Assembly (NCBI GenBank): GCA_020631485.1
Contig: JAHDHC010000008.1
Span: forward strand, 4,199 to 51,093
Length of the DNA stretch: 46,895 nucleotides
Source: Candidatus Altimarinota bacterium
GTDB lineage: Bacteria; Patescibacteriota; Gracilibacteria; BD1-5; UBA6164
Direction of reading: 5' to 3'
This document shows, in pieces, positions 10,561 through 31,994 of this stretch (positions within the stretch are counted from its first letter, which is position 1; each line of letters begins with the position of its first letter). Under the pieces are notes generated by a model, which had not been told where the DNA came from, ran no database searches, and saw only the letters and a program-made list of their open reading frames with translations. The translations under genes were made by a program, and so were the position numbers.

Positions 10561-11100
10561 ATGATTTTGGAACTTATCCAATCAATCTGAGACATCTTTA
10601 TGAAAAATCCTTATGCTCAGACATTAGGATTTATTTGATATGCTCTTTCTATATATGCATTTTGATTTTGTAAAAATACAAAGTTTATAAAGGCTATGGC
10701 TGTCTTATCTATTTTCTGGGCTGCACATTTTTATCTTATCTGAGCACTTTCAGCTTTTATAGTAAATTTTATAGATATTTTTAAGTCTGTATTTGCTCTC
10801 AAATATGGAAAAAACAAAAAAATTGCCTTTGGTTTTTTCTTGACTTACCTCATCGCATGATATTTCTTTTTTGAAAATATCATTTCCTTTCTGCCCATCT
10901 GACTCGCTATATTTTGACTCTATCTAACTTTTTTCGTACGTTGAGTATTTCTCAATTTTTGATATCTTATAATCGTATGCTTGTGGTTTATCTATAACTT
11001 CCATCATGCATCACTCGGTTGAATGATCTCAGATATAACTCTCTTTTTTACAGGTATATACGGAATTATGACTATGTTTATTTTAAAAAAGAAAAAATAA
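10561..11100 (+). CDS. YgjV-like inner membrane protein (copy 1)
   Basis: 179 residues, five to six membrane segments. It resembles the YgjV family of bacterial inner membrane proteins: a short amphipathic start (ELIQSIGDIFMKNPYAQTLG), then paired hydrophobic helices with a conserved basic loop (KNTKFIKAMAVLSIFWAAHF) and FHHASLGGMISDIT. Function is unknown for the family. It begins 5 bases after mtnN and precedes a second, longer homologue. The C-terminus ends abruptly in lysines after the last helix. Confidence 0.75.
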
Positions 11101-11160
11101 GGATTTTTTTGTATAGATTTCTAAAGCATGTTACACTAAATAGCATATCTATAAGGAAAT

Positions 11161-11877
11161 ATGCTAGAATTATTTATTAGAGATTTTATCGATATGTTTG
11201 TAAAAAATCCAATTGCTCAAGCTTTTGGAATTTTATGAATGTGTATCATCCTCTATGGTTTTTTTCAGACTGACGATAAAAAAGCTAAAAGCATTATCGC
11301 TTTTTCAATGCTAGCATGGATCATGCATTTTTTCCTAATGGGGCTTATGACGGCAACTATTGCAACTATTATTTGATTTGTGAGAATGCTTTTGTCCTTA
11401 AAATTTCAAAAAAACAAATACGTATTTTTTGGCATTGTTGTAGTTTCTGTCGCGTTTTGATATTTGAGCTATGAATCAATGTTTCATCTCCTCCCTATAG
11501 TTGCAACGATTGCTTGAGCCTTTTCCTTCATGTTTTTTGAGAAAATACTCTTTCGATTTGCGACTCTTCTCACCACACTTATATGGCTCTATTATAATAT
11601 CAATATATGATCACTTTGATGAGTAACAAACTGAATCCTGACAGAATTCATTCTCATAATCACTATTTTGAGAATGGCCTGACGCGAAGGACATCTGCAT
11701 CATTATAAAGAAATGTTTCATGATATTATCCACAAACATAAGGACGTCGATATGTGAAATATGGTGATTATAAAGGATAGTCATAAAATCATTAAATCTG
11801 AAGGGTATTTTGGAAAAATTTTTAAAAAACTAAAAAACATCAAAGTTTCAGATTGGAAAAATAAGTTTTTTGCCTAA
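11161..11877 (+). CDS. YgjV-like inner membrane protein (copy 2)
   Basis: 238 residues. The N-terminus DFIDMFVKNPIAQAFGILG matches that of the preceding copy, and the central RMLLSLKFQKN and SLGGVTNGILTEF motifs correspond too. Unlike copy 1 it carries an extra cytosolic tail of about 60 residues, rich in H and K (GREGHLHHYKEMFHDIIHKH). It follows copy 1 after 60 bases and is followed closely by the rRNA methyltransferase gene. Function unknown. Confidence 0.75.
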
Positions 11878-13804: not shown

Positions 13805-13960
13805 GAGTATATGTACAATAGAGAAAAAGCAACAAGAAAAAAGAAAAATATAAAAAAATTTGCGTTTGTTATTTTTCTCATTATATAGGGTTTTATCAGG
13901 CATAAATTCCGTAAATACCAATCGGAATTTGTGTTTTTCTTTTATCTTATTTTTAGCTTT

Positions 13961-14665
13961 ATGGAATCATTCATCTCATATATATGATCATTTGATCGGT
14001 ATGATATTTTGGCACAAAGTTCATGAATCATGGGTGTTTGTATATTGCTATACGGGCTATCTCAAAAAGATGATATTAAATCGATAAAAATAGTAACGAT
14101 CAGTATGATTTTTTGGTCTATTAACTATGCTATGCTTGGCTTATTTTCAGCACTTTTAGTTACAGGAATAGGATTTTTAAGGATGTATTGCTCACTCAAA
14201 TACAAGGGGAATATCTATGCTTTTACTCTCCTTTTATGACTCATATTTCTTGCATGATACTTCAGTTTTGATGGTCAATTTATTACGCTCTTACCAGTAT
14301 TTTCCAGTGTTCTTGGGATAATAGGTTTTCAGCTCTATTCGTGAATAACTATGCGTCTTATCCTCTTATGATGATCTATGCTCTGGCTGGTATACGTGAT
14401 AGCTGTTTGAAATATTCCAGGGATTATCAATGAGGTGCTTGTACAGTGTATCATGATATCTACGATTCTCAGGATCGCATTCTGAGAAGAAGACAAAATC
14501 AGTCTGAGACAAAAAGTCAGGATTTTGCTTAGTAAAAATACCTGAAAGATGAGACCAAGGGTCGATTTTGAAAGATTTCTCATATTCAGAGATCGTAAAA
14601 GGTACCTCAATGATGACTTCACTGCAGTGTATGAGGGAGATGAAAAAATATTTCAAAAAACATAG
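13961..14665 (+). CDS. YgjV-like inner membrane protein (copy 3)
   Basis: 234 residues, clearly related to copy 2: GIMGVCILLYGLSQKDD corresponds to GILGMCIILYGFFQTDD, and FLRMYCSLKYKGN to FVRMLLSLKFQKN. The C-terminal tail of about 60 residues is basic (LRQKVRILLSKNTGKMRP). It is separated from copies 1 and 2 by the methyltransferase and the exchanger. Six UGA glycines or more are in frame. The start at 13961 is the first in-frame ATG after a long AT-rich stretch. Confidence 0.75.
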
Positions 14666-26387: not shown

Positions 26388-27770
26388 ATGCCACAGGACA
26401 ATTCATCGGAAATATTTGTAACACAATGATTTTATAAGAGACTCGAAGAAAGCCAGCAAAAATATGCTCATATCATCATGATAGCTACAAAACCAGATAT
26501 CATAAAACAAGCTCCACTCTACAAAGAGCTTAGAGAAAGATGAGAGCTTGTAGTTCTCATACATACCGGACAACACTATGATTTTAACCTCAGTAAGTGA
26601 GTTCTTACTGAGTTTGGAATGGATGTTGATATTAACCTCAATATCTATGGGCAAATCCATAAGAAATTTAGCCTCGTTATCGAACGACTTTGAGATATAC
26701 TGGTAAATATACATGAAAATTATAAAAAAATCCCCGTGCCTTATGTTCACGGAGATACGCTTACAGCCACAACAGCGGATAAGGCAGCCTTTCTCAATAA
26801 GTTTGCAGTAGTACATGTAGAGGCTGGAATCAGGACCTTTACTCCAAACAAAGAGTTTTATCATAAACTCTTTCAAAAGTATGAACAGGGCGAATTTGAC
26901 TGGGATAAGTACTATACTTCACTTCAAGACTTTGATATTTATGAAACTGGAAGTATCGAGCCTTACCCTGAACAATTTGATACTCGTTGAATTGAGGCCT
27001 CTACTGGACTATTTGCCGCACCAGTAGAGCTCTACAGAAAAACTCTGAAAAAAGAGTGATTTCCAAAAGAACATATAAAGGTAGTTGGAAACACTATAGC
27101 TGATGCTATAGAAATATCTCGTGAAAAACTCTCTGGATCTAGCGCTTTTGAAAAGTTTCCCAATATGAAGTGAAAAGACTTTATATTTATAACAATTCAT
27201 AGAAGAGAAAACACTGAAAAAAAAGAACGTTTCCTTGTTATCTATTATGCTATTAAAAAGCTTATAGAAAACTGAGTATATGTCTGTTTCCTTGGTCTTT
27301 ATGCTTCTGAATTTGCTATTGATAACTATTGACTCAGAGAAGATATAGAGATGCTGAGAAAAAAATACAAGGACAATTTTGCATACGGACCAGCACTTGC
27401 ACACCATACGGAAGTAATAGATATGATCTCAAATGCTGGAGCAGTAGTAACAGATAGTGGAAGTATGCAAGAAGAAGCAAATATAGTCTGAGTTCCGTGT
27501 GTCACAGCCAGGTTCTGATCTGACAGAACAGAAACAATCCTTGACGGAGCCAATATCATAGCTCCACCAATAAACTCAAATCTGATTTTCGATATAGTAG
27601 TCTGAGCAATCGATAATAAAAAAATGAGAAAAAAACAACATCTCTACGGAAAGAATGTCTCAGCCAAGATAGTAGACGAAGTCCTAGCTATGCTCAAAAA
27701 AGATGGAAAACTCTTCAAATACGACGACGAACGTCTTGATCTTGAGCAATACTTTGATTGGAAGATATAA
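26388..27770 (+). CDS. wecB: UDP-N-acetylglucosamine 2-epimerase-like protein
   Basis: Interconverts UDP-GlcNAc and UDP-ManNAc for surface polysaccharides. 460 residues against about 370 usual. Signatures present are HTGQHYDFN, VPYVHGDTLTATTADKAA, VHVEAGIRT, TIHRRENTEKK (catalytic His region) and TDSGSMQEEANIVGVP. The extra length is an insertion of about 45 residues after the E-A-G-I-R-T motif (about residues 150-195), rich in Y, E and D (EQGEFDWDKYYTSLQDFD). It lies alone, divergent from dprA and convergent with a membrane protein gene. Confidence 0.88.
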
Positions 27771-27776
27771 AAAAAT

Positions 27777-27809
27777 TCTCCAAGACCCACATTTCTGTGA
27801 ATTTGGAGA
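27777..27809 (-). terminator. hairpin terminator, cassette element 1
   Basis: tctccaa and ttggaga pair around a second short helix (ccaca/tgtg). On the minus strand it is followed by a run of T (the A run at 27769-27775). It lies 3' of the minus-strand membrane gene 27826-28146. It is related to the elements at 29076 and 28248, with paired bases changed together. Confidence 0.7.
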
Positions 27810-27825
27810 TTATTGTCTAGGGGTA

Positions 27826-28146
27826 CTACGAGAGTAACCCATAAAAACTCAATACCAACAATCCGAACCACAGAATAGGTACAAAATTCAATATCCTCTG
27901 CCCAGACAGTTTTAGTTCTATTATAGAAAAAATAGCTGCCAGGATTAATAATCCTAAGACTACTTTAATTGCTATAAAGCGAAAACTCTCAACTGAGATA
28001 AAAGTCATTAATCCAATACAAAGCACTACTATTGCGATAGTGGTAAAAAATACTGTTTTAGCTAGATCCCAACCCTTTACAATATTCATTGCTATTGAGA
28101 AGAGTACAGCTACAGTTGCGAGTATAAATCCAATTGTAATTGCCAT
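27826..28146 (-). CDS. small membrane protein M1 of UGA-free cassette
   Basis: 106 residues, three to four membrane segments (ITIGFILATVAVLFSIAM, VFFTTIAIVVLCIGLMTFI, AIKVVLGLLILAAIFSIIE, and a final hydrophobic stretch). Family unknown. The start is set by a clear Shine-Dalgarno-type AGGAG in TATAGGAGAATCT, 11 bases before ATG 28146; an upstream in-frame start at 28176 precedes that site and is less likely. All seven glycines use GGN codons. It has its own promoter and terminator. Confidence 0.8.
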   Translation of the reverse strand: MAITIGFILATVAVLFSIAMNIVKGWDLAKTVFFTTIAIVVLCIGLMTFISVESFRFIAIKVVLGLLILAAIFSIIELKLSGQRILNFVPILWFGLLVLSFYGLLS

Positions 28147-28179
28147 ATACTTAGATTCTCCTATATTGAGTAACACAAT

Positions 28180-28206
28180 TCTATAGATATCTCAATTTTT
28201 GTCCAA
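28180..28206 (-). promoter_or_regulatory. promoter for M1
   Basis: On the minus strand TTGGAC, a 15-base spacer and TATAGA, ending 34 bases before ATG 28146. It is followed by a leader containing TCAATATAGGAGAAT (28155-28169), a 15-base sequence also found before M2. Confidence 0.5.
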
Positions 28207-28247
28207 TCTTGTAAATTAGCTTTAATAATTATAATTATATAAAAAAT

Positions 28248-28277
28248 GCCTCAGCACCCACATGTTGGGCGCGAGGC
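28248..28277 (-). terminator. GC-rich hairpin terminator, cassette element 3
   Basis: gcctcagcaccca and tgttgggcgcgaggc form a strong stem; the minus strand continues into a T run (A run at 28241-28246). It sits between M2 and M1, so the two genes are probably separate transcripts. Confidence 0.8.
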
Positions 28278-28330
28278 TAAGTAGTAACTCTCTACAACAC
28301 TGATGCTAGCAAGCATGGTTATATGAGAAA

Positions 28331-28741
28331 CTATGTCAAAGCAGGAAGACTAAGGTAAACGTTGTATGTAGCTAGCACTGCAACATAACCTACCATAATT
28401 CCAAAAGATAAATATATCAATCCCGATAAAATACATGCAAATCCTTCGTGTCTTTCCTTATATGATTCATATGCCTCAGTTAAAAAACTAATAGTACATA
28501 TAAGAAATCCCCAACTTAAACATGAATAGATAATGACATACTCAGATACTGGAATTATTTCACGCTTCATAAAAGCTGAAAGTATGCAGATTACACCTGC
28601 ATATACTAGAGTTGTCCACCAGTAGATTGGAGGTATTTTAGATACTTTACTCTCCCTTCCTCTTTTCACTGATAATAAAACCAAAGCACATACAATTGCT
28701 ATTACAATAGCCGCAAACATTACTCCTGAAACCCACTGCAT
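28331..28741 (-). CDS. small membrane protein M2 of UGA-free cassette
   Basis: 136 residues with four membrane segments: about 6-25 (GVMFAAIVIAIVCALVLL), 42-58, 68-88 and 105-128. Loops contain KRGRESKVSK and LTEAYESYKERHEG. Family unknown; layout and the ending (YLSLPALT) resemble M3 (ELSPPVS). ATG 28741 is preceded by TATAGGAGAATAACG, a well-placed AGGAG. All eight glycines are GGN. The gene ends in TAG, and the GC-rich terminator follows after 53 bases. Confidence 0.85.
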   Translation of the reverse strand: MQWVSGVMFAAIVIAIVCALVLLSVKRGRESKVSKIPPIYWWTTLVYAGVICILSAFMKREIIPVSEYVIIYSCLSWGFLICTISFLTEAYESYKERHEGFACILSGLIYLSFGIMVGYVAVLATYNVYLSLPALT

Positions 28742-28770
28742 CGTTATTCTCCTATATTGATGACTCGTTT

Positions 28771-28798
28771 ATTATAATATTTTCTTGTAAATATACAA
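28771..28798 (-). promoter_or_regulatory. promoter for M2
   Basis: Minus strand TTGTAT, 16-base spacer, TATAAT, 30 bases before ATG 28741. The same -35 hexamer and spacer length occur before M3. It overlaps a plus-strand promoter for the cysteine-rich gene. Confidence 0.55.
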
Positions 28799-28812
28799 TT
28801 ATTTTGTATGAT
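28785..28812 (+). promoter_or_regulatory. promoter for cysteine-rich gene
   Basis: TTGTAA, 16-base spacer, TATGAT, 33 bases before ATG 28846. It overlaps the M2 promoter face to face, so the two genes may exclude each other or be co-regulated. Confidence 0.4.
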
Positions 28813-28845
28813 ATAAGAAATTAATAAATTATAAATTCTTCCCAA

Positions 28846-29070
28846 ATGGATACAAAGTCAGCACTATTATCTGCAGTACTTGCAGCTTCTCAGACTTGAA
28901 ATGCAGAAGAAGGTCCAACATACACATGCGATCCTAATCATTATTTGTGTCCAGCTATTACTGAATGCTTGGAAACTACTCGTCTTAGCTACGACCAGTG
29001 CCTTGATAAAGTAATTGTCAATATTCAGCACTGTCCCTGGATAACACCTAGTGATGATATCCCGACATAA
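28846..29070 (+). CDS. small cysteine-rich protein, possibly exported
   Basis: 74 residues with five cysteines (C28, C35, C41, C52, C63; YTCDPNHYLCPAITECL...SYDQCL...HCPW). The start MDTKSALLSAVLAASQTGNA is mildly hydrophobic and could be a weak signal peptide with cleavage near ASQTGNA-EE. One UGA (G18) is in frame, so unlike its three neighbours it needs the alternative code. No Shine-Dalgarno site. The stop codon TAA directly adjoins cassette hairpin element 2. Family unknown; the cysteine density suggests disulfides or metal binding. Confidence 0.6.
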
Positions 29071-29075
29071 AAAAT

Positions 29076-29108
29076 ACCCCCAGTATCCACTCCTTGTGAA
29101 TCTGGGGT
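29076..29108. terminator. hairpin terminator, cassette element 2
   Basis: ccccag and ctgggg pair, with inner atccac/gtgaat pairing. The minus strand runs into TATTTTTT. It lies between the converging cysteine-rich gene (+) and M3 (-). Comparison with element 1 shows the same inner TGTGAATyTGG but CTCCAA/TTGGAG in the outer stem: compensating changes. Confidence 0.75.
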
Positions 29109-29156
29109 TAATTAATTTCCCTAATTATTAACATCTCCTTAGAGCAGAAGCAATAA

Positions 29157-29558
29157 TTAAGATACTGGTGGGGATAATTCAATCCCAGCCATAACGAAAA
29201 AATACAGTGCAGCAAGGGCAATAATAAATGAAATAACTGCCCACCCCCATAGAATTGGATTGAAGGGGTCATCCTGCTTTGTTTCTTGAAACTTAAGTAC
29301 AAATCTGCTTCCAGTGTAAACTAGCGGTAAAGCAAACAGACTACTGTAAATAAAGTAATCCAATGCTTGATACGAGACTTCTACTACTTTTTTATGCATA
29401 GAGATCGAAAATCCACCTATTATGAGGAAGTAGAAGATGGATACAGCTATATAGCAAATGTGTATGAGATTAATTTTCTCTCTAGTAAGAACTCTACTAA
29501 TAAGAAGAAACCATGCTATGGAAATACCTATGAATGAGGTTACTGTATACGTCAACAT
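29157..29558 (-). CDS. small membrane protein M3 of UGA-free cassette
   Basis: 133 residues, four membrane segments (TSFIGISIAWFLLISRV, ICYIAVSIFYFLIIGGF, DYFIYSSLFALPLVYTG, WGWAVISFIIALAALYFFV). Polar loops hold LTREKINL and KFQETKQDD. Family unknown; topology and ending resemble M2. AAAGGAGGATGACAA gives a near-perfect Shine-Dalgarno sequence 7 bases before ATG 29558, the strongest in the window. All six glycines are GGN. TAA at 29157. Confidence 0.85.
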   Translation of the reverse strand: MLTYTVTSFIGISIAWFLLISRVLTREKINLIHICYIAVSIFYFLIIGGFSISMHKKVVEVSYQALDYFIYSSLFALPLVYTGSRFVLKFQETKQDDPFNPILWGWAVISFIIALAALYFFVMAGIELSPPVS

Positions 29559-29590
29559 TTGTCATCCTCCTTTAAAATCATGACATTTAC

Positions 29591-29618
29591 AATATATAAT
29601 TTTATTGAAAAGATACAA
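29591..29618 (-). promoter_or_regulatory. promoter for M3
   Basis: Minus strand TTGTAT, 16-base spacer, TATATT, 33 bases before ATG 29558; same design as the M2 promoter. Confidence 0.55.
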
Positions 29619-29670
29619 TATTTTTGTGTAATATATCAATATAAAACCAGAAATAATTCTGATTCACAGT

Positions 29671-29700
29671 AAAACAAGTCCTCAATTAAGGACTTGTTTT
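29671..29700. terminator. bidirectional terminator after topA
   Basis: Perfect arms aaaacaagtcct and aggacttgtttt around caatta, just downstream of the topA stop on the minus strand. Confidence 0.85.
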
Positions 29701-29702
29701 GT

Positions 29703-31994
29703 TTAAGCTTCTGCTTCTTCTCAAGCTTTTTCTGCGAGTTGCTTGTTTACTTCATCCCAGACATCTTTTGGGATATTCTTCGCGATTTTCACATCTGGAT
29801 AGCGCTTAGCAGCGAGAAAAGGCCCACGACGAGAGTTTTTGACTACCATTTCTTCTCCTGACTCTTCATCTATCAAAAGACCTTTTTCCTCGAGAATTGC
29901 TTCGAGTATTTCTTCCTTTTCGTTTTTGATCTTCCCTATCCATTTTACTTTTGGATACTCACTTGAAGCGAGAAATGGACCATAACGTCCAGTTTTTACA
30001 ACAATAGTTCAGTCTACCCCATCGGGACAAGGTTTTCCTTCATATTTTGCTCTAAGGGCATCTAGCGCGTCTTTTTCTTCTTTTGGCTGTTCTATATGCT
30101 TACATTCAGGGTAATTACTACATCCTATAAATTTTCAGGCTTTTGAGAATTTATAGACTAGTTCACTAGAACACTCAGGACATTTTTTCCCGACAAGTTG
30201 TACTACTTTTTCAGCCTTTTCTCCGGCATTATCAAGATCCTTTTTGAGACTTCCTTCCCAAAAGCGTGAGAGCATCGTCTCATACTTCTCTTTCCCTTCT
30301 GAGATTTTATCAAAATCTTCTTCTACTTCTTTTGTGAACTTGTACTGCATCATGGTAGAAAAATATTGCTCTAAAAACTCTGTTACGACAAATGCTATCT
30401 CTGTTGGGCTAAGATGCTTTGTTGGAAGCTTTTCTATATAACCTCTATCGATGATCGTAGAAATAGTTGGAGCGTAAGTAGATGGTCTCCCGATTCACTC
30501 TGATTCGAGTTTTTTTACAAGTGAGGCTTCTGTATATCTCGCAGGGGGTCTTGAAAAGAGCTGTTGTGCGCGAATCAAAGTCGATTCTACTGTATCTCAA
30601 GTTTTGAGATCTGGAAGGATTCACTCTTTTCATTCGTCAGTTTCTACTTCATCATCAGTTCCTTCTATATACAGTTTCATAAAACCATCAAACTTGATTA
30701 CTTCTCATTTTGTGATCCACTCTTGACTTGTTGCAGTTTCTGGAGAAAAAGTAAAAGTTGTGACTTCTACGAGTGCTTCTTTCATCTGAGAAGCAAGAGT
30801 TCTGTTGTAGATAAGAGTGTATAGTTTAAGTTGTCCAGCATCAAGAACATTTTTGAGACTTGCAGGGCTTCTGCTTACTTCTGTTGGTCTGATAGCCTCA
30901 TGTGCTTCTTGCGCTCATGCCGATTTTGTGGTAAATGAACGTGCTGCATAATACTCTTTTCAGTGATCTTTTTCGATAACAGATTTACAGTCAGACTTTG
31001 CCTTGTCAGAGAGATGAACACTATCTGTTCTCATATAAGTAATGAGTCCTTCCCTCTCACCATTTCACAAATCCATTCATTCATAAAGTTTTTGTGCGAT
31101 GGTCATAGTTTGCTTTACTCAAAAACCATATTTTCTCGCAGCTTCTTGCTGGAGAGTAGAGGTAGTAAATGGAGCTCATGGTTTTCTTTTGCTCTCCTTT
31201 TTTACGATATCTTTGAGGGAAAATTGTATTTTTACAGTTTTTTCAAGTACTATTGCTCACTTCTTGTCTTTTGTCTCTTGTATATCTTCAAGTCATCAAA
31301 ATAGAGTTGAGAGAAGTTTTTCAGCGTCTTCACGGCTTTTACATTTTTTTACTTTACCAGAAATCTTTGAAAACTGAGCGTTGAATTTTGATTTTCCACT
31401 TGTTAGTTCAGTTGTGAGCTTCCATGACTCTTCTGGCTTATGGTTTCTGATCTCTATTTCTTTTTCTACGATAAGTTTGACTGCAACTGATTGTACTCTT
31501 CCCGCAGAAAGTCATTTTCTGATTTTTTGCCAGAGGATAGGACTCACTTTGTATCACACAAGCCTATCAAGCACTCTTCTTGCTTGCTGAGCGTCTACGA
31601 GGTTTATATCGACAGTACGAGGAGACTCAACGGCTTTAGTGATTGCTGTTTTGGTGATCTCGTGAAAAACTATTCTTTTGGCCTTTTTTGGATCAAGCTT
31701 GAGTACATTACACAAATGCCATCCTATAGCCTCTCATTCACGATCCTCATCCGTCGCTATCCATACTTCGTTTGCTTCTTTTGCCATCTTTTTGAGTCAG
31801 CTCACGGTCTTTTTTTTGTCATCACTGACTCAGTACTCTGGTGCAAACTTGTTTTCTATATCTATTCAGAGACTCTTGACTGGCAGATCTCTGATGTGCC
31901 CCATACTCGCGACTACTTTATAGTCAGGTCCGAGAAACTTTTCTATCGTCTTCCCTTTTGCAGGAGACTCCACTATTACTAAATTTTTTGCCAT
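29703..31994 (-). CDS. topA: DNA topoisomerase I
   Basis: Type IA topoisomerase that relaxes negative supercoils. 763 residues. Toprim elements [17 protein letters not shown] and [14 protein letters not shown]; active-site LITYMRTDS with the catalytic Tyr; [29 protein letters not shown]. The C-terminus carries a four-cysteine zinc finger ([16 protein letters not shown]...CSNYPEC) and two or more TOPRIM C-terminal repeats ([29 protein letters not shown]). The tail is acidic (EKAGEEAEA). Glycines of DREGEAIG and others are UGA. Confidence 0.96.

Follow-up and report, generated by a model that had tools for sequence, protein, structure and literature searches.

UGA-free, Shine-Dalgarno-led genes for small membrane proteins beside topA in a code-25 Gracilibacteria genome: probable recent imports from a standard-code source

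UGA is a glycine codon in genetic code 25 and a stop codon in the standard code. For Vampirococcus lugosii (Absconditabacteria/Gracilibacteria), 126 horizontally transferred genes were inferred by phylogeny, and UGA recoding has been proposed to isolate these bacteria or to prevent incoming DNA from being expressed, via stop read-through (PMC8080830). Phages without in-frame TGA, readable in both codes, were predicted for Gracilibacteria (PMC10746230), and the authors of PMC6851277 detected prfB in none of the BD1-5 genomes that they had. The locus described here resembles the first case in its probable lineage-specific horizontal gains by a bacterium of the Candidate Phyla Radiation with few genes and code 25, and the code-11-compatible phages in its UGA-free genes, which give the same product in codes 11 and 25. 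It differs from V. lugosii, where transfer was read from gene trees, in that the evidence consists of UGA absence, Shine-Dalgarno (SD) leaders and apparent donor stops, and extends to homologue-free genes. Unlike in the phages, no phage gene or match was found, and comparable patches elsewhere in the genome hold metabolic genes and terminal UGA codons. An incomplete literature search returned no paper in which UGA-free, SD-led genes with terminal UGA were used as a label for recent import.

The window, i.e., the whole stretch of DNA analyzed (46,895 nucleotides), corresponds to positions 4199-51093 of contig C4 of a draft genome (G000; 1.21 Mb, 27 contigs). UGA accounts for 0.51 (51%) of the glycine codons in the window and for 0.474 (47.4%) genome-wide (1147 ORFs). 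A motif search of the genome revealed a single release factor with a conserved GGQ motif, which is RF1-like, and a tRNA with anticodon UCA was found (labeled tRNA-SeC by ARAGORN), both as code 25 predicts. The features of the interval and its flanks are the following:

26388-27770, forward strand: wecB-like gene, UGA-rich native flank
27771-29702, no strand: lineage-specific interval from the wecB-like gene to topA; M genes missing from all relatives examined
27777-27809, reverse strand: M1 terminator hairpin, then T7; -16 kcal/mol, z -2.4
27826-28146, reverse strand: M1 (106 aa, stop TAG), highly hydrophobic with probably 3-4 transmembrane helices; no UGA among its 7 Gly
28155-28169, reverse strand: SD-containing leader of M1, TCAATATAGGAGAAT, the same as that of M2
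28248-28277, reverse strand: M2 terminator hairpin, then T6; -23 kcal/mol, z -4.5
28331-28741, reverse strand: M2 (136 aa, stop TAG), with four predicted helices; no UGA among its 8 Gly
28746-28760, reverse strand: SD-containing leader of M2, TCAATATAGGAGAAT, matching that of M1 over all 15 nt
28846-29070, forward strand: M4, a divergent ORF of 74 aa that contains Cys and may have a signal peptide; lacks an SD; one of its 2 Gly is UGA
29078-29107, reverse strand: M3 terminator hairpin, then T6; -18.3 kcal/mol, z -2.6
29157-29558, reverse strand: M3 (133 aa, stop TAA), with four predicted helices; no UGA among its 6 Gly
29566-29573, reverse strand: M3 SD AAAGGAGG, 7 nt upstream of the ATG
29703-31994, reverse strand: topA, UGA-rich native flank

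An earlier note, made from the letters of this DNA, had remarked that the 21 glycines of M1-M3 include no UGA codon and that the genes would be intact under the standard code. Both statements hold. None of the 21 glycine codons (M1 7, M2 8, M3 6) is UGA, compared to 47% genome-wide; the chance of this is 0.526^21 ~ 1.4e-6, assuming codon independence. Small hydrophobic ORFs in general show no shortage of UGA (UGA share 0.488). The reading frames are intact under the standard code, with the stops TAG, TAG, and TAA. As they hold no in-frame UGA and end in TAA or TAG, the proteins would be unchanged under code 25. In the codon-usage comparison that the note had called for, UGA deviated strongly and the other codons looked weakly foreign. 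The non-glycine codons of M1-M3 leaned weakly to those of the patch genes described below, a set chosen partly on low UGA, so that comparisons using it are not independent. Since 769 of 20,000 random native triples equaled the score, this weak signal was dropped as independent proof of import.

The SD sequences are TATAGGAGAAT for M1 and M2 and AAAGGAGGATGA for M3. With a strong SD defined as AGGAG or GGAGG 3-12 nt from an ATG start, M1, M2, and M3 were the only carriers among the window ORFs of at least 80 aa (3/52), in agreement with the note's observation that AGGAG-type sites are nearly absent from other starts. Genome-wide, an SD was found in 4 of 775 native-type genes (UGA/Gly ≥ 0.3; offset control, 8/775) and in 6 of 21 low-UGA genes (offset control, 0/21). 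Native genes show no detectable SD use, their counts not being above background. The 3' end of the 16S rRNA, ...CTATCTCCTTATT, retains the anti-SD core CTCCTT (CUCCUU in RNA). The 16S gene lies at contig C22:2128-3601 (L080) with the 3' end GGATGGACTATCTCCTTATT; the core is kept there despite the missing native SD signal. A leader of the form TCAATA(G)TAGGAGAAT is common to M1, M2, and the UGA-free gene C11:29133, where it is nearly identical.

The claim that each gene has its own promoter and terminator was confirmed for the terminators and not for the promoters. A hairpin with a T-run follows each of M1, M2, and M3 (z -2.4, -4.5, and -2.6), and these hairpins were not among the listed sites of a consensus terminator scan. 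Consensus-like promoter sites numbered 18, against 12.9 +/- 3.3 in shuffles; promoters of M1-M3 are only plausible, with no excess of sites over shuffles. M4, inside the block, looks native-like or is no gene.

By hydropathy, M1-M3 are polytopic, and single-sequence AlphaFold2 models of M2 and M3 gave four helices each at low confidence (pLDDT 62 for M3 and 69 for M2). Hydropathy and these low-confidence models point to small inner-membrane proteins. A role in transport or the envelope is a low-confidence guess from composition. Profile searches against Pfam, PHROGs, NCBIfam, and PADLOC and sequence searches against the PDB yielded no family for M1-M3. The best PHROGs hit (M2, partial, E 0.003) was not counted as phage similarity, the PADLOC anti-phage defence models gave no match up to E 1, and Foldseek of the M2 model against the PDB returned nothing with E < 0.65. 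Two assignments of M3 were rejected, namely PF07695 (7TMR-DISM_7TM; 23.7 bits vs. a gathering cut-off of 29, E 5e-5) and PF00892 (EamA; 16.2 bits vs. 28.2, E 0.013). Both matches are local and weak and reflect generic helix composition; M3 is a member of neither family.

The earlier note had also seen in M1-M3 its best candidate for an undescribed system. Paralogy among them was ruled out (best mutual score 5.7 bits), and no shared function or kinship tying them together was found. Because the genes are separated by their own terminators, mutually unrelated, and functionally unlinked, they are not shown to be one system.

No homologue of M2 was found in 47 genomes of the same family, in 333 genomes of the phylum, or in a scan of the genome contigs, and the search of 242 genomes of the class gave none for M1 or M3. 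Each of the three was without a match in viral contigs, phages, and plasmids, the collections that covered M1 and M3 beyond their class. Searches with joined proteins are no valid negatives for M1-M3, as the source genome itself matched two joined parts only. Weak matches (E 0.001-0.01) were set aside as composition-driven. The same type of search found topA in 45 of the 47 family genomes, so the method works.

Synteny within the family extends over topA and two upstream genes. Locally, topA and valS are separated by M3-M1, wecB, dprA, another ORF, and dnaB; in three relatives (G006, G022, G035) topA is followed by one small ORF and then valS, and other relatives have different genes there. 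M1-M3 occurred in none of the 12 topA neighborhoods read. The presence of the block in relatives, which the earlier note had proposed to check, thus came out as absence at this locus, and the pattern named there as refuting, code-25 homologues that have UGA at matching glycine columns, was found in none of the relatives searched. No tRNA, flanking repeats, or recognizable integrase or transposase mark the interval as an integrative element. In one relative (G028), a 291-aa ORF with 0 UGA in 14 glycine codons lies directly downstream of topA (L133:2390-3265). Given this UGA-free ORF, the 3' side of topA may be a repeated insertion spot.

The UGA-poor genes of the genome form two groups. The first consists of highly expressed native genes that keep some internal UGA, such as those for EF-Tu (6 UGA in 39 Gly), DnaK, EF-Ts (1/18), and a probable surface protein. 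The latter (C20:39326-42898) is a 1190-aa secreted protein with extreme codon bias and 4 UGA in 109 glycine codons, and is probably highly expressed. The second group comprises scattered, often SD-led, UGA-free genes. The genome scan found about a dozen such patches besides M1-M3 amid UGA-rich native genes; patch-bearing contigs with UGA-rich native flanks are C4, C6, C11, C13, C18, C19, and C26. The patches include:

contig C6:5656-7042 (L008): pyrE/pyrF; 0 UGA in 36 Gly; AGGAGG and GAGGAG leaders; UGA-rich flanks
contig C18:6128-8231 (L020): pyrD-like/pyrC pair; UGA-free save one terminal UGA each
contig C18: subtilase-like secreted protein and C18:15886; UGA-free patch set
contig C11:15619-16689 (L013): dapD-like gene; 42 of its glycines are GGN, and its one UGA stands 11 codons from the end
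contig C11:29133-30102 (L040): two tandem UGA-poor genes, one with the M1/M2-type leader, the other with a UGA 16 codons before the end
contigs C19 and C26: small membrane proteins; UGA-free patch set
contig C13: secreted protein; UGA-free patch set
contigs C8 and C16: C8:2173 and C16:64; UGA-free patch set

The dapD-like gene has a TTGACT/TATAAA-like promoter and a strong terminator hairpin.

Exactly one UGA occurs in four patch genes, each time at the very 3' end: at codon 346 of 353 in pyrC, 347 of 352 in pyrD, 346 of 356 in dapD, and 142 of 157 in C11:29629 (product of the four tail fractions, ~1e-6). Read in the standard code, each gene stops at this UGA, and the next TAA or TAG follows 6, 8, 11, or 16 codons on, counting the UGA. 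From their position, the terminal UGAs appear to be stops of the donor that presumably encode glycine now; the four imports would thus seem to have kept the donor stop, with a readthrough of 5-15 residues. The nearest relative of the pyrD-like protein (L138, standard code) ends 3 residues before the local UGA, and its start coincides with an SD-led internal start of the local gene.

The pyrD-like protein had 16 matches in other, standard-code classes of the phylum, none with an in-frame UGA, and no match among the sampled members of its own class. These relatives came from the genome search; a scan of the genome contigs with the same query found none. At several of the relatives' loci pyrC or pyrF is also present, and both pyrD and pyrC occur at several. 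For C16:64, a 53% relative turned up in another class. Judging from these matches, at least two patches (pyrD-like and C16:64) probably came from standard-code Patescibacteria. As they have relatives there, our best guess for the donor of M1-M3, by analogy, is other standard-code Patescibacteria.

We infer the transfer of M1-M3, its recency, and their expression from the features described above. The reading that we favor, with a probability of roughly 0.83, is that M1-M3 were recently acquired by horizontal transfer as stand-alone, SD-led genes from a source in which UGA is a stop. One or more such bacteria would have supplied three genes for small inner-membrane proteins, which were inserted beside topA, each as a unit with its SD leader, its terminator hairpin, and presumably a promoter. 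The CUCCUU core of the native 16S rRNA could still pair with their leaders, and the time since transfer would have been too short for UGA to enter their glycine positions. The recent acquisition from a standard-code source suggested in the earlier note is thus well supported by the UGA-free, SD-led genes, their absence in relatives, and the sister patches with their apparent donor UGA stops. Counting against import are the native-looking M4 inside the block, the weakly foreign non-glycine codons, the absence of insertion marks, and the lack of any M1-M3 homologue, which leaves the donor unproven. The note's other suggestion, selection of the module for a function beyond its own cell, gained no support, since housekeeping genes (pyrE, pyrF, pyrC, pyrD, and dapD), for which working elsewhere would make no sense, share the signature and recent transfer explains it.

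A code-neutral vehicle, such as a Gracilibacteria phage readable in both codes or a plasmid, would also have delivered genes without UGA and with TAA or TAG stops, as M1-M3 are, and phages of this kind are those predicted in PMC10746230. We consider it unlikely: M1, M2, and M3 matched no phage or plasmid, no phage or mobility gene was recognized in the interval, and the sister patches carry terminal UGA, unexpected for such a vehicle, as well as genes for making pyrimidines and lysine. It is very improbable that M1-M3 are native and avoid UGA on account of high expression. UGA is indeed scarcer in highly expressed native genes (the counts for EF-Tu, EF-Ts, and C20:39326 are given above), but these genes keep some internal UGA and show no SD. 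The codon profile of highly expressed genes gives M1, M2, and M3 scores of -35, -22, and -26 bits, and relatives lack M1-M3. An assembly chimera or bin contamination is scarcely credible, even for a draft genome of 27 contigs, as the block is flanked on both sides by UGA-rich native genes, UGA-free patches recur on several contigs amid native genes, and a single-contig code-25 genome (G035) also has SD-led UGA-free genes.

Within 400 kb of G035, SD-led UGA-free ORFs are present, so the pattern is not private to the genome studied here; two UGA-free ORFs there have their UGA 1-2 codons before a TAA or TAG. In 400 kb of another genome (G012), few such ORFs occurred. With import as the favored reading, the block exemplifies an ordinary process of wider reach whose signature is unusually clear here, and gene flow does cross the genetic-code barrier in this genome. 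UGA content and SD leaders together would label recent imports, even homologue-free genes, and the strength of the code barrier would become measurable in any code-25 genome, the M block being a natural test that also adds three orphan membrane proteins. Elsewhere in the window, at 10561-11877 and 13931-14665, three look-alike membrane proteins share an N-terminal motif (~A-Q-x-x-G-x-x-G) and are possible paralogues.
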